From Campylobacteraceae bacterium (lineage in GTDB: Bacteria; Campylobacterota; Campylobacteria; Campylobacterales; Sulfurovaceae), in NCBI GenBank assembly GCA_027035765.1, contig JALVUD010000002.1:106704-170703 (forward strand): 64,000 nt of DNA. Reading direction: 5' to 3'. The notes beneath the pieces are model-generated. The model was not told the origin of the DNA and did not search any database. It worked only from the letters and a program-made list of their open reading frames with translations. Made by a program: the position numbers and the translations under genes. Below, one piece after another: positions 11,944 to 18,319 of this stretch (position 1 is its first letter; each line of letters opens with the position of its first letter).

Positions 11944-12369
11944 TCATTCCTCACCGCGCACTTTCCTGCGCAGCTGCTTTTTGCCCGAATGTTTCTTCTT
12001 CGAGGCCAGCCGCCGTTTGACAGCCCCTTTGGTAGGCCGGGTCGGGATGCGCTTTTTCTGCGTGACGTTGACACTTCGTATCAGCTCCACCAGCCGCTCC
12101 AGCGCTTCGGCCCGGTTGAGTTCCTGGCTTCGGTGCTGTTGGGATTTGATGACGATGATGCCCTCTTTGGTGATGCGCTTGTCTTTGCGGGCGAGGAGCC
12201 TCTCTTTGTAGTGTTCAGGCAGGGAGGATGCAGCGATATCAAAACGCAGATGCACCGCCGCCGCCACCTTGTTGACCTTCTGCCCGCCGGACCCCTGCGC
12301 CCGTATGGCGGAGATCTCCACTTCATTTTCGTCCAGGGTGACGGTATCGGAGATTTTCAAGGTTGCCAT
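11944..12369 (-). CDS. arfB: alternative ribosome-rescue peptidyl-tRNA hydrolase ArfB
   Basis: GGQ motif in RAQGSGGQKVNKVAAAVHLRFD; basic C-terminal tail. Confidence 0.9.
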   Translation of the reverse strand: MATLKISDTVTLDENEVEISAIRAQGSGGQKVNKVAAAVHLRFDIAASSLPEHYKERLLARKDKRITKEGIIVIKSQQHRSQELNRAEALERLVELIRSVNVTQKKRIPTRPTKGAVKRRLASKKKHSGKKQLRRKVRGEE

Positions 12370-12632
12370 TCTTTCTCTTTCAGCCCTTCACTCAATATCA
12401 TTTTGATCAGTGACTGATACGGGACATCCATACTGTTCGCTTTGACCTTCAATGCATCGATCATATCTACTGGCAGACGGATCGAAATGCTTTTGGTTGT
12501 CTTTTTCAGATTGGGGAAACGCACCCTTTTTGCCTGAGACATCTCCAGATACTCTGTGGCATCGTGTGTCTCCCAAAAGATGCGCTCTTCGTTTTCGTCC
12601 TTAAAGATAGGGATTGTTTTTGTTGCTTTCAT
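12357..12632 (-). CDS. BrnA/CopG-type ribbon-helix-helix antitoxin
   Basis: SISIRLPVDMIDALKVKANSMDVPYQSLIKMIL RHH; overlaps the toxin gene upstream. Confidence 0.75.
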   Translation of the reverse strand: MKATKTIPIFKDENEERIFWETHDATEYLEMSQAKRVRFPNLKKTTKSISIRLPVDMIDALKVKANSMDVPYQSLIKMILSEGLKEKEWQP

Positions 12633-12924
12633 AGAATTTTTTCTCCTTCTTTGTCATTTCTCTTGCCGAGATCACGCGTATGAGACGATCTCTCACGGTA
12701 AAGACCACCATGATTTTCACATTGGCATCATCTCTGCCAAATGCGATGCACCGGCATTCATCTTGTGAATGGGAAAAATCCTCGATCACAATAAGAGGTT
12801 CATTGAAAAATATCTCTTCGATCCTCTTATAGTTGAGCCCGTGCTTCTCTTCATTTTTATAGACATTGCCATCGTCCCAATCAAAGCCAACCAGGGCTTC
12901 CACATCCAAACAGTCGAATTCCAT
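12601..12924 (-). CDS. BrnT family toxin
   Basis: FDWDDGNVYKNEEKHGLNYKRIEEIFFNEPLIV, VFTVRDRLIRVISAREMTKKEKKFYE; start set at MEFDCLD. Confidence 0.85.
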   Translation of the reverse strand: MEFDCLDVEALVGFDWDDGNVYKNEEKHGLNYKRIEEIFFNEPLIVIEDFSHSQDECRCIAFGRDDANVKIMVVFTVRDRLIRVISAREMTKKEKKFYESNKNNPYL

Positions 12925-12976
12925 TTTTCCAACCTCATGTATATTATGAGTATATACAATTATCATTAAAGAAAAA

Positions 12977-13687
12977 TTAATTCATACTTCCCGCATCCCG
13001 CCTCAACCTCTCCAACACCCTCACCATCGCCAGCGTATCGAGCTCGCAATACTTCAGCAGCGCCTCGCGCATCTTCTCTTTCTTCTCATCATCCATCTTG
13101 TCCATAGTGGCAAAGGCGTTCATCGCTTCGCTGCCGTTGTGTATGCCATCGAGGGCTTTGTAGGCCTGTGCCATTTCGGGTACGAGGGCGGGGAGGACGT
13201 ACTTGATGGAGTAGCTTCCCTGCATGGCCGGGGTGACGTAATATTTTTGCTGAAACGGGGTCATGAGGTCTCTGAGGTTGTCGGCGATCGCCAGCAGATG
13301 CTCACGCAGATCCTCGTACTCCTCCGCCAGCGCTCTGATTACCCCTTTTTCAAAGCTCATGTTGTACGCCAGGACGGTGACGTCGGCGGGGATGTCAGCA
13401 CAGAGCCGCCGCACCAGGGCTTCTCGGGGGTCGCTGCCCTCTTCGGCCAGAAACTCACGGTGCTCCAGCCTGCCGTCTGCGTGTTCGATATGCAGCGAAT
13501 ACTGAAAGGGGATCTGCATGAAGGGTTTGACCCCTTTCCATCGGGGGATGGCCTGCTGGAAGGTTTCGAAGTCGAGGTGATAGACGGGATACGTGAGCGT
13601 CTCGAGAAAGGCTTGAACGGCCTTTTTGTCGAAGTGGGTGGTTTGGGCTTTGTACTGCTCTACGGCCTGGCGCTGTTTGGCGGTCAT
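12977..13687 (-). pseudogene. DUF2779 domain protein, N-terminally truncated (RNase H-fold/exonuclease-like part retained)
   Basis: TYPVYHLDFETFQQAIPRWKGVKPFMQIPFQYSLH is DUF2779 core. Same frame extends upstream as GGGKIFNIFNLGSKKQKALYEQGIIDIADIPDDFEM to an in-frame TGA near 13793-13795, with no N-terminal half. Confidence 0.7.
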
Positions 13688-13882
13688 CTCGAAATCATCG
13701 GGGATGTCGGCGATGTCGATGATGCCCTGTTCGTAGAGGGCTTTTTGTTTTTTGCTTCCAAGATTGAAGATGTTGAAGATTTTACCTCCACCTCACCGTG
13801 AAAGAACCCGCAAGCCTAATCTCCAACCTCATTACCAGTATCGAATCCGGTCTGAACAGAACCATCGGAAGAGGTATGCAGT

Positions 13883-14890
13883 TTACTGTCTAGCTCCAGT
13901 CGAAAATTTTATTTCTTTAACCTCAAATAGTTTAACATCAACAATATTGACTTTTTCGTCATCAAATAAAACCACATTATCACCTTTACCAACAGAACTT
14001 TTGAAAATAAACCCATCAAAACCAGCGTCTTTAATAAGCTCAGAGAGATATTGACTTGGAAGATATTCTAAATAAGCATCTCTCGGAAGGACAGGTTTTG
14101 ATAGCTCTTCTGCAAAGTGCTGTAATAATGAAATATATTTGAAAATATACACAGCCTCTTCGCTCTCTTTTGAAAAAGGGGAAGTGGCCTTTCTTGGGTT
14201 CCTTAAATCGGCCAATCTCAATCGATCAACAATTTTTATTTTTGCAATAGTAATCACATCTCCTTTATGGGGACGTACTTCAGCAATTGCTGTAGAACGA
14301 TTGGTAGCGGTATACAAATATGAGATGCCTACAGGATTGGCTCTTCCACCATTTTTTACATACTCAGCCGGTGGCTTACCCATTTTCTCTAGTTCTATTA
14401 GTTTCTTGTCTTCACTTATTCTTGCACGATACAACACTCTTTTCCCAAAATTTTGTATAGACAACTCATTCAACCATTCACGAAAGCGTTCTATGTCAAA
14501 ATCATCAAATTTCAAAAAAAATCTATTGTTATGCTTGATCTCTGTTTTAAATTTTCCCCATATGTCCTCTACTGACTGTATATCAAGTTTATGTTGATAT
14601 TTTTTTTCTTCAGAGTAGGGAATTATCCTTGGAATAAGTTTTGATGCAATCTCTTGATTGGAAAATATTTCCCAATCATTTTGGATCAAGAAAGCCAAAT
14701 CAGTCCCATTATGATTCTCTTCATCATAAATTTCTAACAACATTTCAAAATAATCTACTATGTTATTAATTCGGATAGCTTTTACATTTTGAGATCCACA
14801 CACAGAACATTCAGCTACAACACCACCTTCTTTTTCAATAATACCATTTATAATTTTATCGTTAATGCACTTTTCACAGCAACTATCCAT
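13883..14890 (-). CDS. RES-domain protein with N-terminal Cys-rich (zinc-ribbon-like) segment
   Basis: RANPVGISYLYTATNRSTAIAEVRPHKGD RES signature; CCEKC...CSVCG at N-term. Confidence 0.8.
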   Translation of the reverse strand: MDSCCEKCINDKIINGIIEKEGGVVAECSVCGSQNVKAIRINNIVDYFEMLLEIYDEENHNGTDLAFLIQNDWEIFSNQEIASKLIPRIIPYSEEKKYQHKLDIQSVEDIWGKFKTEIKHNNRFFLKFDDFDIERFREWLNELSIQNFGKRVLYRARISEDKKLIELEKMGKPPAEYVKNGGRANPVGISYLYTATNRSTAIAEVRPHKGDVITIAKIKIVDRLRLADLRNPRKATSPFSKESEEAVYIFKYISLLQHFAEELSKPVLPRDAYLEYLPSQYLSELIKDAGFDGFIFKSSVGKGDNVVLFDDEKVNIVDVKLFEVKEIKFSTGARQ

Positions 14891-15833
14891 TGTGTTCCTC
14901 TAAAAACTTTGCAATTATTTCTATATGGTTTTGCATTGAAAGTTTTTTAGCATATCCCAGTCCTCTAAAAAGTTTTTTTTCATATAATTCCATATATTCT
15001 TGTGAAGCTTTTGTGTTGTATAAATTATGACGCTTTTCATCATCTACTAAATATCTAAGTGCCTCTATAAATTTTCCGCCGGCATCCTTATTATCATCTC
15101 TTCTATCAGATTTATAGTGCTTAATAAACATTTCATCATCTTCATCTTTCTTCAAGTACGTCATATGAATAGCAACTGCCCATGCTGGACCTCCACTATC
15201 AGAGTAATCATCACCAACTATTAGAAAATCCCCAAAGCCATCTAAGTTTTCTTCAATAAAATCTAAGTGCAAGTCAGAAAAAGGTTCTTCATCCTTATAG
15301 TGAGCATTTTTTTCACGTTTGAAGCCATCACGCAAAACGACTCCTTTTCCAATATCTTTAAATTTTCTTCTATACCGTTTCTCATTTTCATTGGATATAA
15401 AAATATTGTATTCAATTTTTGTAGAATATTGTTCTAATAAACTATGAAGTTCTGCTGTATCCAAAAATCCTCTGTGAATTATCGCTATCTTATAATCTTT
15501 AAATTTATTTAATAAGATTTGCAATTCTTCTAGTGTGGACGAAGGATTTACTACTATTCCAATTGTAGTGAGTTCTTTATACGCTCTTTTTAATAAGAAT
15601 TCTTGCAATTCGCTACTTTTATTATTTGAGAAATCTCCAACATTAGGGTTTGCCACTAAAACATGATATACACCATTTTCCTCAAATTGTTCCATAGTTC
15701 TTAGAAGAGGGTTTATATTTTTCTTAACGGGTTCTATAATTGGTATGATATTCCCATTTTTTAAAGCTTGGCTGGCTTGCTCTTTAAGCAAGACTAATTC
15801 ATATTGCTTGCCTCTAAAATATGGAAAATACAT
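14883..15833 (-). CDS. sce7725 family (beta-protein-like) protein
   Basis: MYFPYFRGKQYELVLLKEQA...IIPIIEPVK; position between RES and sce7726-like genes. Confidence 0.7.
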   Translation of the reverse strand: MYFPYFRGKQYELVLLKEQASQALKNGNIIPIIEPVKKNINPLLRTMEQFEENGVYHVLVANPNVGDFSNNKSSELQEFLLKRAYKELTTIGIVVNPSSTLEELQILLNKFKDYKIAIIHRGFLDTAELHSLLEQYSTKIEYNIFISNENEKRYRRKFKDIGKGVVLRDGFKREKNAHYKDEEPFSDLHLDFIEENLDGFGDFLIVGDDYSDSGGPAWAVAIHMTYLKKDEDDEMFIKHYKSDRRDDNKDAGGKFIEALRYLVDDEKRHNLYNTKASQEYMELYEKKLFRGLGYAKKLSMQNHIEIIAKFLEEHNG

Positions 15834-16735
15834 TACATATCCCCTTTTACAATATCTTTTACCTTTAACTCCAAAAGAGACAAAAAGTTCTTTTTTTCCT
15901 TATGAGTTAATTTTGTCTCGATCGCTCTTGCTTTCAAAGATTTTGGAGTATTTTCAATAAATTCCTTTAACTCTTTACTATCCCCTCTTTTTTTTACAAT
16001 TTTTACTGCTTCCTTGTATGCCATACCCTTATCTAAAGTTACAAAAATGTCTTTTGCGTAATTATACATTTCTGAATTCGGAACATCTAATTTTTCGTTT
16101 GTCAGTTTCTTAATTATAAATAGATATTCATCACGTCTTAATATATCAAATAGACAAGAAAGATCTATATTGTCTTTGTTTGATTTAGATTTAAAAACTG
16201 TTGATATAGATCCATTTACATTAAGCTTTAAAAGTCCTATTCCCATATCCTTTAAGTAGGTAAGTTTATCTGCTTTATTTTCATCAGTAATAACATAAAT
16301 TTTATCAAAAACCTTCTTATAGTCATCAAGCTGTTTCAAGAGTCGATCAAGATTGTCATACTTAGATTTAATTTCATAAGCAGTAAACGTCCCATTAACA
16401 ATTACGCAATCGGCTTTTGAGTTTTTGATACAAACTTCGGTAAGCATAAAAGAGGTATTTAGGGAATGCGTTCCCAATAATATTTTGTTTGCCAAAACGT
16501 TTTTATAAATATATTCATTAGGATACTTTTTTTGAATATATTCAAATATTAAATCGTATATAGAAGATAGTTTCAAATCTGCTATTGTCAGATAATTTTC
16601 TCCCAATGTGTGTCTCAATATTCTATTAAATCTCATAGAAGAGCCAAATTTTGCCAACTCTTTGATGACAGATGGCAAGAATATATTTGATAATGATGAC
16701 AATTGATTTTCATGAAAAGTAATTTTTAGTATCAT
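15833..16735 (-). CDS. sce7726 family protein, PD-(D/E)XK nuclease-like
   Basis: SKADCVIVNGTFTAYEIKSKYDNLDRLLKQLDDYKKVFDKIYVIT, i.e. D-x(n)-ExK; adjacent to sce7725-like gene. Confidence 0.72.
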   Translation of the reverse strand: MILKITFHENQLSSLSNIFLPSVIKELAKFGSSMRFNRILRHTLGENYLTIADLKLSSIYDLIFEYIQKKYPNEYIYKNVLANKILLGTHSLNTSFMLTEVCIKNSKADCVIVNGTFTAYEIKSKYDNLDRLLKQLDDYKKVFDKIYVITDENKADKLTYLKDMGIGLLKLNVNGSISTVFKSKSNKDNIDLSCLFDILRRDEYLFIIKKLTNEKLDVPNSEMYNYAKDIFVTLDKGMAYKEAVKIVKKRGDSKELKEFIENTPKSLKARAIETKLTHKEKKNFLSLLELKVKDIVKGDM

Positions 16736-16887
16736 TCCAAATATATCCTAAATATTATATTCCTTCTAAGCTCCACATAAGGTATCTGTACTCATTTTAG
16801 CAATTTTTTTCTTTGCATTTAGCATGTATGCTCGTCATGAACCGAAAAAAACAAAGAATAGAATATAAACTTACATTCATCACTTTC

Positions 16888-17010
16888 TCACAACTCCACC
16901 ACCTTCTCAAACATCTCCTTAATCTCACTCTCATGCGAGATCAGAAATATCTGCCGATACTGCTCTTTGATGGTATGAAACGCCTCCATGATCTTCAAAC
17001 CATCACTCAT
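16888..17010 (-). pseudogene. C-terminal remnant of SbcC/Rad50-type ATPase
   Basis: 40-codon frame MSDGLKIMEAFHTIKEQYRQIFLISHESEIKEMFEKVVEL matches SbcC C-terminus (QIFLISHE H-loop); its ATG overlaps the DUF2130 stop. Confidence 0.65.
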
Positions 17011-18319
17011 CCTCCCCAACCTCCTCCGGCAGCTCCAGCACATCGATCTTCGGTAGTGCATTCCCCCCGGCGATCCCCTGCAGCGCCCCGTACATCTCGG
17101 TGGTGTTGGCGAGTACCGAGTCGATGAGCTTCTGGCGCCGTTTCCAGGCTGCCATGAGGGAGCGCTTCTCCTTGTCCAGTTCACTCTGCATCTGCATGAA
17201 ACCGTCGACGATGGCTTTGAGCTGCATCTGAAATTCGTTGCCGGTGAGGTAGTTGTAGAGCAGCGTCATCTTGTCGGCTTTGTTCTCCTCCCGCTGCACG
17301 GTCTGATGGACGCGGATCAGGCTCTCCCGCAGCAGGGAGACCGAGCCTTTGAACTCCTCCAGAGAGCAGACCCAGATGCCGTCCACCCAGCCCATCCGCT
17401 CCATTCCCGGGGGATAGACCGAGGTCACCAGAACGCCGATATCGGCTCCGGCTTTGAGCATATCCTGCTTGAGCTTGCCGATCCAGGCGTCACTCCAGGC
17501 TTTGGTGTTTTTGGACTCGTAGCAGATCACGCCGCAGTTGGGAACCTCCCGGGTATGCACCGTCTGGATGCAGTCGGCGCCGAATGCCCCCTTTTTGACC
17601 TCTTCGATCTGATCGAAAGGGAACTGGTCGCGCAGCCACCCCTCGATGGCCAGCTCCAGCGCCTCCCCCTGCACCTGCATGCTCCCCTGCTCCGCCTTGC
17701 GCTTGGCCTCCTCCAAAGAACGCTGGAGCTGTTTGAGCTGCTCGTCCTTCTCCCGCAACTTCATCGCCTGCTCCTCTTCGATCTTTTTGAGGCGCTGGGC
17801 GGCGATCTCGTCCAGGCTCTTCTGGAGCTTCTGCCGCTCCTTGGCCAGGGCTTCGTTGAGTTTGGCTTCCGCTTCGGCCTTGGCCTTCAGCGCCTCCTCC
17901 TCCTTCTCCCGCTTGAGCCGCTCGATCTCGATTTTGGCCGCGGAGAGCTCCTGGACCTCCTTGGATTTGGCCTCCAGCTCCTTCTTGAGCAGTTCCATCG
18001 CCGCACTCTGTTCGGCGGTGATCTCCTTTTTCAGCTCCTCGGCCAGTTTCACCCTCTCCTGGCGCAGCTGCTCCTTCGTCGCCTGTCTCAGCTTCTCGTC
18101 GAATCGCTCCTTCTCCTCCTTCAGTGCCTCCTCTTTAGCTTTGAGAGAATCAAGATGGTTTTTATACTGCTTGCGTGCCTCCTCGATCTCCGCCTGGAGA
18201 CGCTTCCGCTCCTCGATCTGCTCTTTTTTGAACTTGGCCTCGATCTGATGATAGAAGATCTCATCGATATCGATGACCGTCCCGCAGTTGGGGCAGGTGA
18301 TGGTATTGGCTGACGACAT
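17003..18319 (-). CDS. DUF2130 domain-containing coiled-coil protein
   Basis: N-term zinc-ribbon ITCPNCGTVIDIDE, long coiled coil, C-term YESKNTKAWSDAWIGKLKQDM nuclease-like domain. Confidence 0.85.
   Translation of the reverse strand: MSSANTITCPNCGTVIDIDEIFYHQIEAKFKKEQIEERKRLQAEIEEARKQYKNHLDSLKAKEEALKEEKERFDEKLRQATKEQLRQERVKLAEELKKEITAEQSAAMELLKKELEAKSKEVQELSAAKIEIERLKREKEEEALKAKAEAEAKLNEALAKERQKLQKSLDEIAAQRLKKIEEEQAMKLREKDEQLKQLQRSLEEAKRKAEQGSMQVQGEALELAIEGWLRDQFPFDQIEEVKKGAFGADCIQTVHTREVPNCGVICYESKNTKAWSDAWIGKLKQDMLKAGADIGVLVTSVYPPGMERMGWVDGIWVCSLEEFKGSVSLLRESLIRVHQTVQREENKADKMTLLYNYLTGNEFQMQLKAIVDGFMQMQSELDKEKRSLMAAWKRRQKLIDSVLANTTEMYGALQGIAGGNALPKIDVLELPEEVGEDE

Follow-up and report, generated by a model that had tools for sequence, protein, structure and literature searches.

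The question raised by this locus is what an operon that joins a RES domain gene to two genes without a named function does for its host. The operon was found in a 64,000-nucleotide stretch of Campylobacteraceae DNA, here called the window, and a sequence-only reading had proposed it as a candidate defence or toxin system. The partners of RES belong to the sce7725 and sce7726 families. NCBIfam of 2026 lists both without a named function, and none was given for either in the literature examined, including PMC9394441. We think it fairly likely that these three genes make up an anti-phage module of the Beta/CII class, which includes P4 gop-beta-cII, with RES in the effector position. Its predicted function is probably defence, in which phage spread would be stopped by shutting down the infected cell.

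Three overlapping genes at a variable site

The operon begins with a sce7726 family gene (positions 15833 to 16735, 300 aa), followed by a sce7725 family gene (14883 to 15833, 316 aa) and the RES gene (13883 to 14890, 335 aa). All three are on the minus strand, and the ORF coordinates in the window give overlaps of 1 nt between sce7726 and sce7725 and 8 nt between sce7725 and RES, exactly as the sequence-only reading had described. It had also called the trio far more AT-rich than its surroundings, which was borne out by GC contents of 0.278 (sce7726), 0.309 (sce7725) and 0.333 (RES), or 31% for the trio versus 0.554 for the window. Its family calls were right. The sce7726 protein was assigned to NCBIfam NF033832 (sce7726_fam, 5.9e-49) and the sce7725 protein to NF033831 (sce7725_fam, 4.4e-86), both above the NCBI cut-off, and the RES domain was identified using Pfam PF08808 (1.8e-15).

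The trio occupies a spot bounded by an ArfB-like gene and a DUF2130 gene and is inserted into a DUF2779 gene (12977 to 13882, minus strand; PF11074, 5.4e-48). The broken gene consists of an intact ORF (12977 to 13687) and a 5' remnant (13690 to 13882) that contains a stop. The remnant reads SVQTGFDTGNEVGD* in the window versus AAQTVFETGNEVEELACELFPNGVEV in contig L006. This contig, binned as Crocinitomicaceae, carries a trio copy that is 84% identical and sits at the same codon of the DUF2779 gene (L006:1-3040). It was rejected as evidence of inter-phylum transfer. Misbinning is likely because L006 is 3 kb long with low coverage and has a flank GC of 0.54, which matches the window's genome.

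The region between these two bounding genes (12357 to 17017) is a variable hotspot in the genus. In the window it holds a BrnT toxin/CopG-BrnA antitoxin pair (12357 to 12966, just beyond the broken DUF2779 gene), the broken gene itself and the trio. In four relatives (L128-L131) the hotspot contains RelE/Phd-like genes, signalling genes or a McrBC-like pair. At the spot itself, about 0.6-0.7 kb carrying RelE- or Phd-like genes is found in other genomes from the genus, one of which has a McrBC-like pair nearby.

Scanning genome contigs with a single protein gave one relative only. The trio was recovered, in identical gene order, from 17 independent loci, with gene GC contents between 0.25 and 0.61. 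Junctions in these loci measure -40 to +11 nt, with one exception of 160 nt. The same order and tight junctions across such a range of GC show that the trio is not a chance arrangement. Rare co-occurrence had been named beforehand as grounds for dropping the defence idea, and co-occurrence in 17 loci removes those grounds. Pairwise distances among the loci agree closely between the three proteins, with matrix correlations of r 0.93-0.95 (Mantel p 0.0005; 17 loci).

Horizontal acquisition, also claimed from the sequence, agrees with where the trio was found. It is carried on plasmids of Pseudorhizobium, Rhizobium, Moraxella and Shinella, adjoins ICE genes in Salmonella, lies in islands of E. 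coli, and is present in viral contigs and in two more genomes from the window's phylum. Among complete E. coli genomes 19/5,426 match the trio, and 18 of the 19 matches span all of it. An IME of P. aeruginosa carries the same three gene names (PMC9394441). We conclude that the three genes form a genuine module that is both conserved and mobile.

Incomplete versions also occur. Pairs of sce7726 and sce7725 without RES are present in three loci (L084, L085 and L087), and in E. coli UTME-9 RES is frameshifted and sce7725 is intact. In two Firmicutes loci (L013:3306-4957 and L089:3603-5162) sce7725 is preceded by a 229-231-aa protein that has an E-x-K-like motif, is not sce7726 and gave no Pfam match of note.

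An association with defence islands was looked for, and defence genes adjoin the trio in most loci inspected; these are sampled loci, not set against a genome background, and carry no enrichment p-value. All four E. coli islands inspected contain other defence genes, including Kiwa KwaB-like genes, cyclase-TIR-caspase genes, a reverse transcriptase gene, type I RM, and AbiE with BREX. The last are at the UTME-9 locus, which also has a Kiwa KwaB-like gene. The R. phaseoli trio comes after OloA-OloB (Olokun). In two relatives from the window's phylum the trio adjoins methyltransferase genes (RM), accompanied in one by SMC-like genes.

sce7726 and sce7725 as relatives of P4 CII and Beta

Rousset et al. 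(2022, PMC9122126) reported that the gop-beta-cII system of satellite phage P4 confers protection from lambda and P1; Gop, as they also note, is toxic when Beta is absent. As judged by sequence comparison, the sce7726 family is the CII family of P4. The PADLOC 'cll' model for gop-beta-cII matches the window sce7726 protein at 4.6e-14, BLASTP aligns this protein with P4 CII at 3e-10 (30% over 93 aa), and the P4 RefSeq record annotates CII itself as a sce7726 family protein. The catalytic set expected of PD-(D/E)XK enzymes (E/D ... D ... ExK, plus Q) is present, so that a nuclease is predicted from the motif. In sce7726 the set comprises E74, D109, E121-x-K123 and Q135 (codons within 16331 to 16516, minus strand). 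These residues are invariant in 17/17 trio proteins and also across 17 family members that include P4 CII. The D-x(n)-ExK pattern noticed earlier is therefore genuine and part of a larger set, and loss of the ExK motif, which would have counted against the proposal, was seen in none of the trio loci.

A fully invariant nuclease motif would suit direct nucleic-acid immunity, in which sce7726 cuts phage DNA, sce7725 guides or limits it, and RES serves either as a back-up or as separate cargo. However, the toxic part in P4 is Gop and not CII, and the tightly correlated distances of RES, sce7725 and sce7726 argue that RES is not loose cargo. Pairs without RES are in keeping with such immunity, as are the Beta-CII pair of E. 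coli prophage Rac-SA53, which has no annotated gop upstream, and the E-x-K-like gene that replaces sce7726 upstream of sce7725 in some Firmicutes. On balance direct nucleic-acid immunity appears quite unlikely.

The relation of sce7725 to Beta is more distant. BLASTP found no similarity between the window sce7725 protein and P4 Beta, and the PADLOC beta and Pfam Beta models did not match it. Profile-profile alignment with few sequences gave a probability of 44% only (hhalign). With larger alignments (21 sce7725 and 10 Beta sequences) the probability was 94.8% (E 5e-8), and the alignment ran end to end, covering 291 columns. A reversed Beta profile scored 0.2% and unrelated families scored <1%. 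When 2,155 ORFs were searched with the Beta HMM, the only matches beyond Beta genes were sce7725 genes, from 3e-8 downward. The reverse search with a sce7725 HMM also matched a DNA-ligase-like protein (L024) at 2.9e-4, and we therefore did not rely on that direction. These profile comparisons place sce7725 and P4 Beta in one superfamily as remote homologues, not in the same family. The sequence-only reading had placed the gene in its family correctly; its remark that sce7725 had no clear activity overlooked this homology.

The AlphaFold2 model of sce7725 (mean pLDDT 84.5) gave TIM barrels as its Foldseek matches. TIM-barrel active sites usually sit just after the barrel strands. Residues R7, E34, N62 and D202, invariant in sce7725, would occupy such positions according to the model. 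In BFVD, P4 Beta was absent from the best 50 matches, and the top match was a Gordonia phage protein.

Unrelated metabolic folds had been named as a result that would speak against a defence role. RES proved to have the RES-toxin fold, and sce7725 has a barrel that is common to metabolic enzymes, yet it belongs with Beta by homology. Its resemblance to metabolic TIM barrels could point instead to a stress-response or metabolic regulator of NAD+ on mobile DNA, and RES modules such as NatRT do affect drug tolerance (PMC11535050). We felt that this reading was very improbable, given that sce7726 and sce7725 both have homologues among validated defence proteins and that the inspected loci of the trio lie among defence genes.

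The RES protein and its possible control

RES proteins are a large family of toxins, and those with known activity degrade NAD+. In 2024 their physiological role was described as unresolved, and none of them had been tied to immunity by that date (PMC11535050). We found no paper linking RES to phage defence within our coverage, which left out subscription papers and most preprints, so an earlier description is possible.

A PDB sequence search with the window RES protein gave a chance match only. Its AlphaFold2 model (pLDDT 82.3) matched MbcT, Xre-RES and ParT best in a Foldseek search of the PDB, and the first nine matches were all RES toxins. Ten residues (R155, R157, R183, Y191, Y193, E204, R206, S298, S299 and N305) are invariant in 17/17 trio loci. 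The conserved active-site residues of NatT are R23, R82, Y93, S184 and N193 (PMC11535050). Pairing by motif, not by superposition, suggests that R157, R183, Y193, S298/S299 and N305 are their respective equivalents, and the protein is a predicted NAD+ phosphorylase. The N-terminus has a zinc-ribbon-like CxxC ... CxxC arrangement (C5, C8, C28, C31; 14798 to 14878, minus strand), which is kept in 16/17 trio RES proteins. It precedes a weak match to HEPN_RES_NTD1 (PF18870) whose E value, 0.0048, is below the cut-off.

In the favoured reading, sce7726 (CII family, nuclease-like) and sce7725 (Beta family, TIM barrel) would form the sensing and control part. The two together, or sce7725 alone, would hold RES off in the uninfected cell. 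In an infected cell RES would phosphorolyse NAD+ and cause abortive infection. The evidence supports the sequence-only guess of a nuclease and a NAD+-consuming effector in an abortive-infection system. What we observed are the homologies, the invariant active-site residues, the linkage and co-inheritance of the three genes, their mobility and the defence genes nearby; a defence function, toxicity of RES, control of RES by sce7725 and the nature of the trigger are inferences.

The evidence on control is mixed. In P4 Beta restrains Gop, and RES has been lost where sce7725 stays (UTME-9 and the three pair loci); yet solo RES exists. RES relatives that share the N-terminal region stand alone on plasmids and phages. 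On a Glutamicibacter plasmid (L135:3778-4960) IS6100 removed sce7726 and nearly all of sce7725, and RES is intact; RES thus need not be lethal without sce7725, unless it is silent there. A simple antitoxin model is uncertain because RES also occurs alone. Given solo RES and the intact Glutamicibacter gene, two arrangements are equally plausible: the pair may activate a latent RES, or an antitoxin may restrain a toxic one.

These points bear on a classical toxin-antitoxin reading. Here RES would be a constitutive toxin, sce7725 its direct antitoxin and sce7726 an accessory nuclease, and the trio would mainly stabilise mobile elements, with phage defence secondary. The survival of RES, alone or after loss of sce7725, is hard to reconcile with this, although Beta neutralises Gop in P4 (PMC9122126) and RES tends to go first within trio families, by frameshift in UTME-9 and by absence in the three pair loci. 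PD-lambda-2C, which is related to the P4 antitoxin Beta, is dispensable for toxin neutralisation and required for defence (Vassallo et al. 2022, PMC9519451). Frequent carriage on plasmids, IMEs and ICEs is what a stabilising element would show, but the neighbours of the trio are defence systems. We consider the toxin-antitoxin reading unlikely. Under the favoured reading of an anti-phage module, the trio gives the RES family a concrete immune context. Its control mechanism is directly testable in E. coli, as natural copies occur there.

On an R. brockwellii plasmid (L136:3471-7966) a RES gene of the HEPN/RES type stands alone, close to a gene with a TIR domain; this is another candidate NAD+-linked defence locus.

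Beta/CII pairs and comparison with known systems

Among 398 genomes of the window's phylum, Beta was found in seven and sce7726 in only 22, and Beta adjoins sce7726 in 7/7 of the Beta genomes. In 5/7 Beta loci the operon runs sce7726, a 2-TM coiled-coil protein, a ~181-aa protein and Beta. The three ~181-aa proteins examined have a peptidase-like HExxH motif, and the one searched is a Peptidase_M78. The other two loci resemble P4 in layout: Beta and sce7726 converge, and a small gene lies upstream. Two more loci (L061 and L063) encode 474-478-aa Beta homologues (hhalign 95.6%) beside sce7726. Beta is convergent with the adjoining gene in Pasteurella phage Pmp11 and in Rac-SA53, where that gene is annotated as CII-like. 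From these layouts the pair of Beta or sce7725 with CII or sce7726 is constant, and the effector place varies.

Clusters or operons of sce7726, a 2-TM coiled-coil protein, an ImmA/IrrE-like peptidase and Beta were noted at L054-L058, L061 and L063. They are apparently undescribed relatives of gop-beta-cII and PD-lambda-2.

A joint reading, to which we give slightly less than an even chance, is that Beta (PF14350) and sce7725 form one TIM-barrel superfamily and that this, paired with a PD-(D/E)XK protein of CII type, makes up the common core of a modular anti-phage class. Effectors would be exchangeable: the Gop membrane toxin, a 2-TM protein with an ImmA/IrrE peptidase, HigB/Xre-peptidase or a RES NAD+ phosphorylase. 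The conserved barrel pocket (R7/K9, E34, N62, D202, H223) may bind or make an effector-triggering signal. If so, the trio would unite sce7725, sce7726 and Beta, annotations without function, in one class around a validated system, and its RES proteins would be the first of their family with a part in immunity.

The earlier reading, which knew of no established function for the trio, did not recognise that two of its genes have homologues in validated gop-beta-cII, so the trio does have known relatives. Like gop-beta-cII it combines a CII family protein and a remote Beta homologue with a third gene in the effector position, and is carried on mobile elements. Unlike gop-beta-cII it is one three-gene operon, whereas P4 cII is convergent to gop-beta, and its effector is RES instead of the small membrane/coiled-coil Gop. 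Using PADLOC models only the 'cll' match to sce7726 was obtained; RES had none, and sce7725 lies beneath detection by the beta model. No gop match was obtained in the trio with PADLOC, and BLASTP of RES against Gop gave E 1.9. The trio was therefore not filed as gop-beta-cII but as a variant of its class.

PD-lambda-2 resembles the trio in its third component, PD-lambda-2C, which is related to Beta; PADLOC PD-lambda-2_C models match P4 Beta (8e-14) and one Beta of the window's phylum (3e-8). It differs in having a HigB-like protein and an Xre-peptidase, neither found among the trio genes using Pfam, NCBIfam and PADLOC, and no sce7726 or RES is described for it. PD-T7-2 was considered and dropped on its published description.

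The RES-Xre modules (MbcTA, ParST, NatRT and P. putida RES-Xre) share the RES fold and active-site residues. No Xre/MbcA/ParS antitoxin adjoins the trio RES, whose neighbours are sce7725 and the broken DUF2779 gene; its partners are sce7725 and sce7726, and it has an extra N-terminal CxxC/helical region. Stand-alone HEPN/RES_NTD1 proteins appear to have the same two-part architecture, going by the weak PF18870 match, but occur on Bacillus, Rhizobium and other plasmids with no adjoining sce7725 or sce7726. Finally, the operons of the window's phylum also place a Beta-family gene next to sce7726, and there a membrane coiled-coil protein and an M78-type peptidase replace RES.
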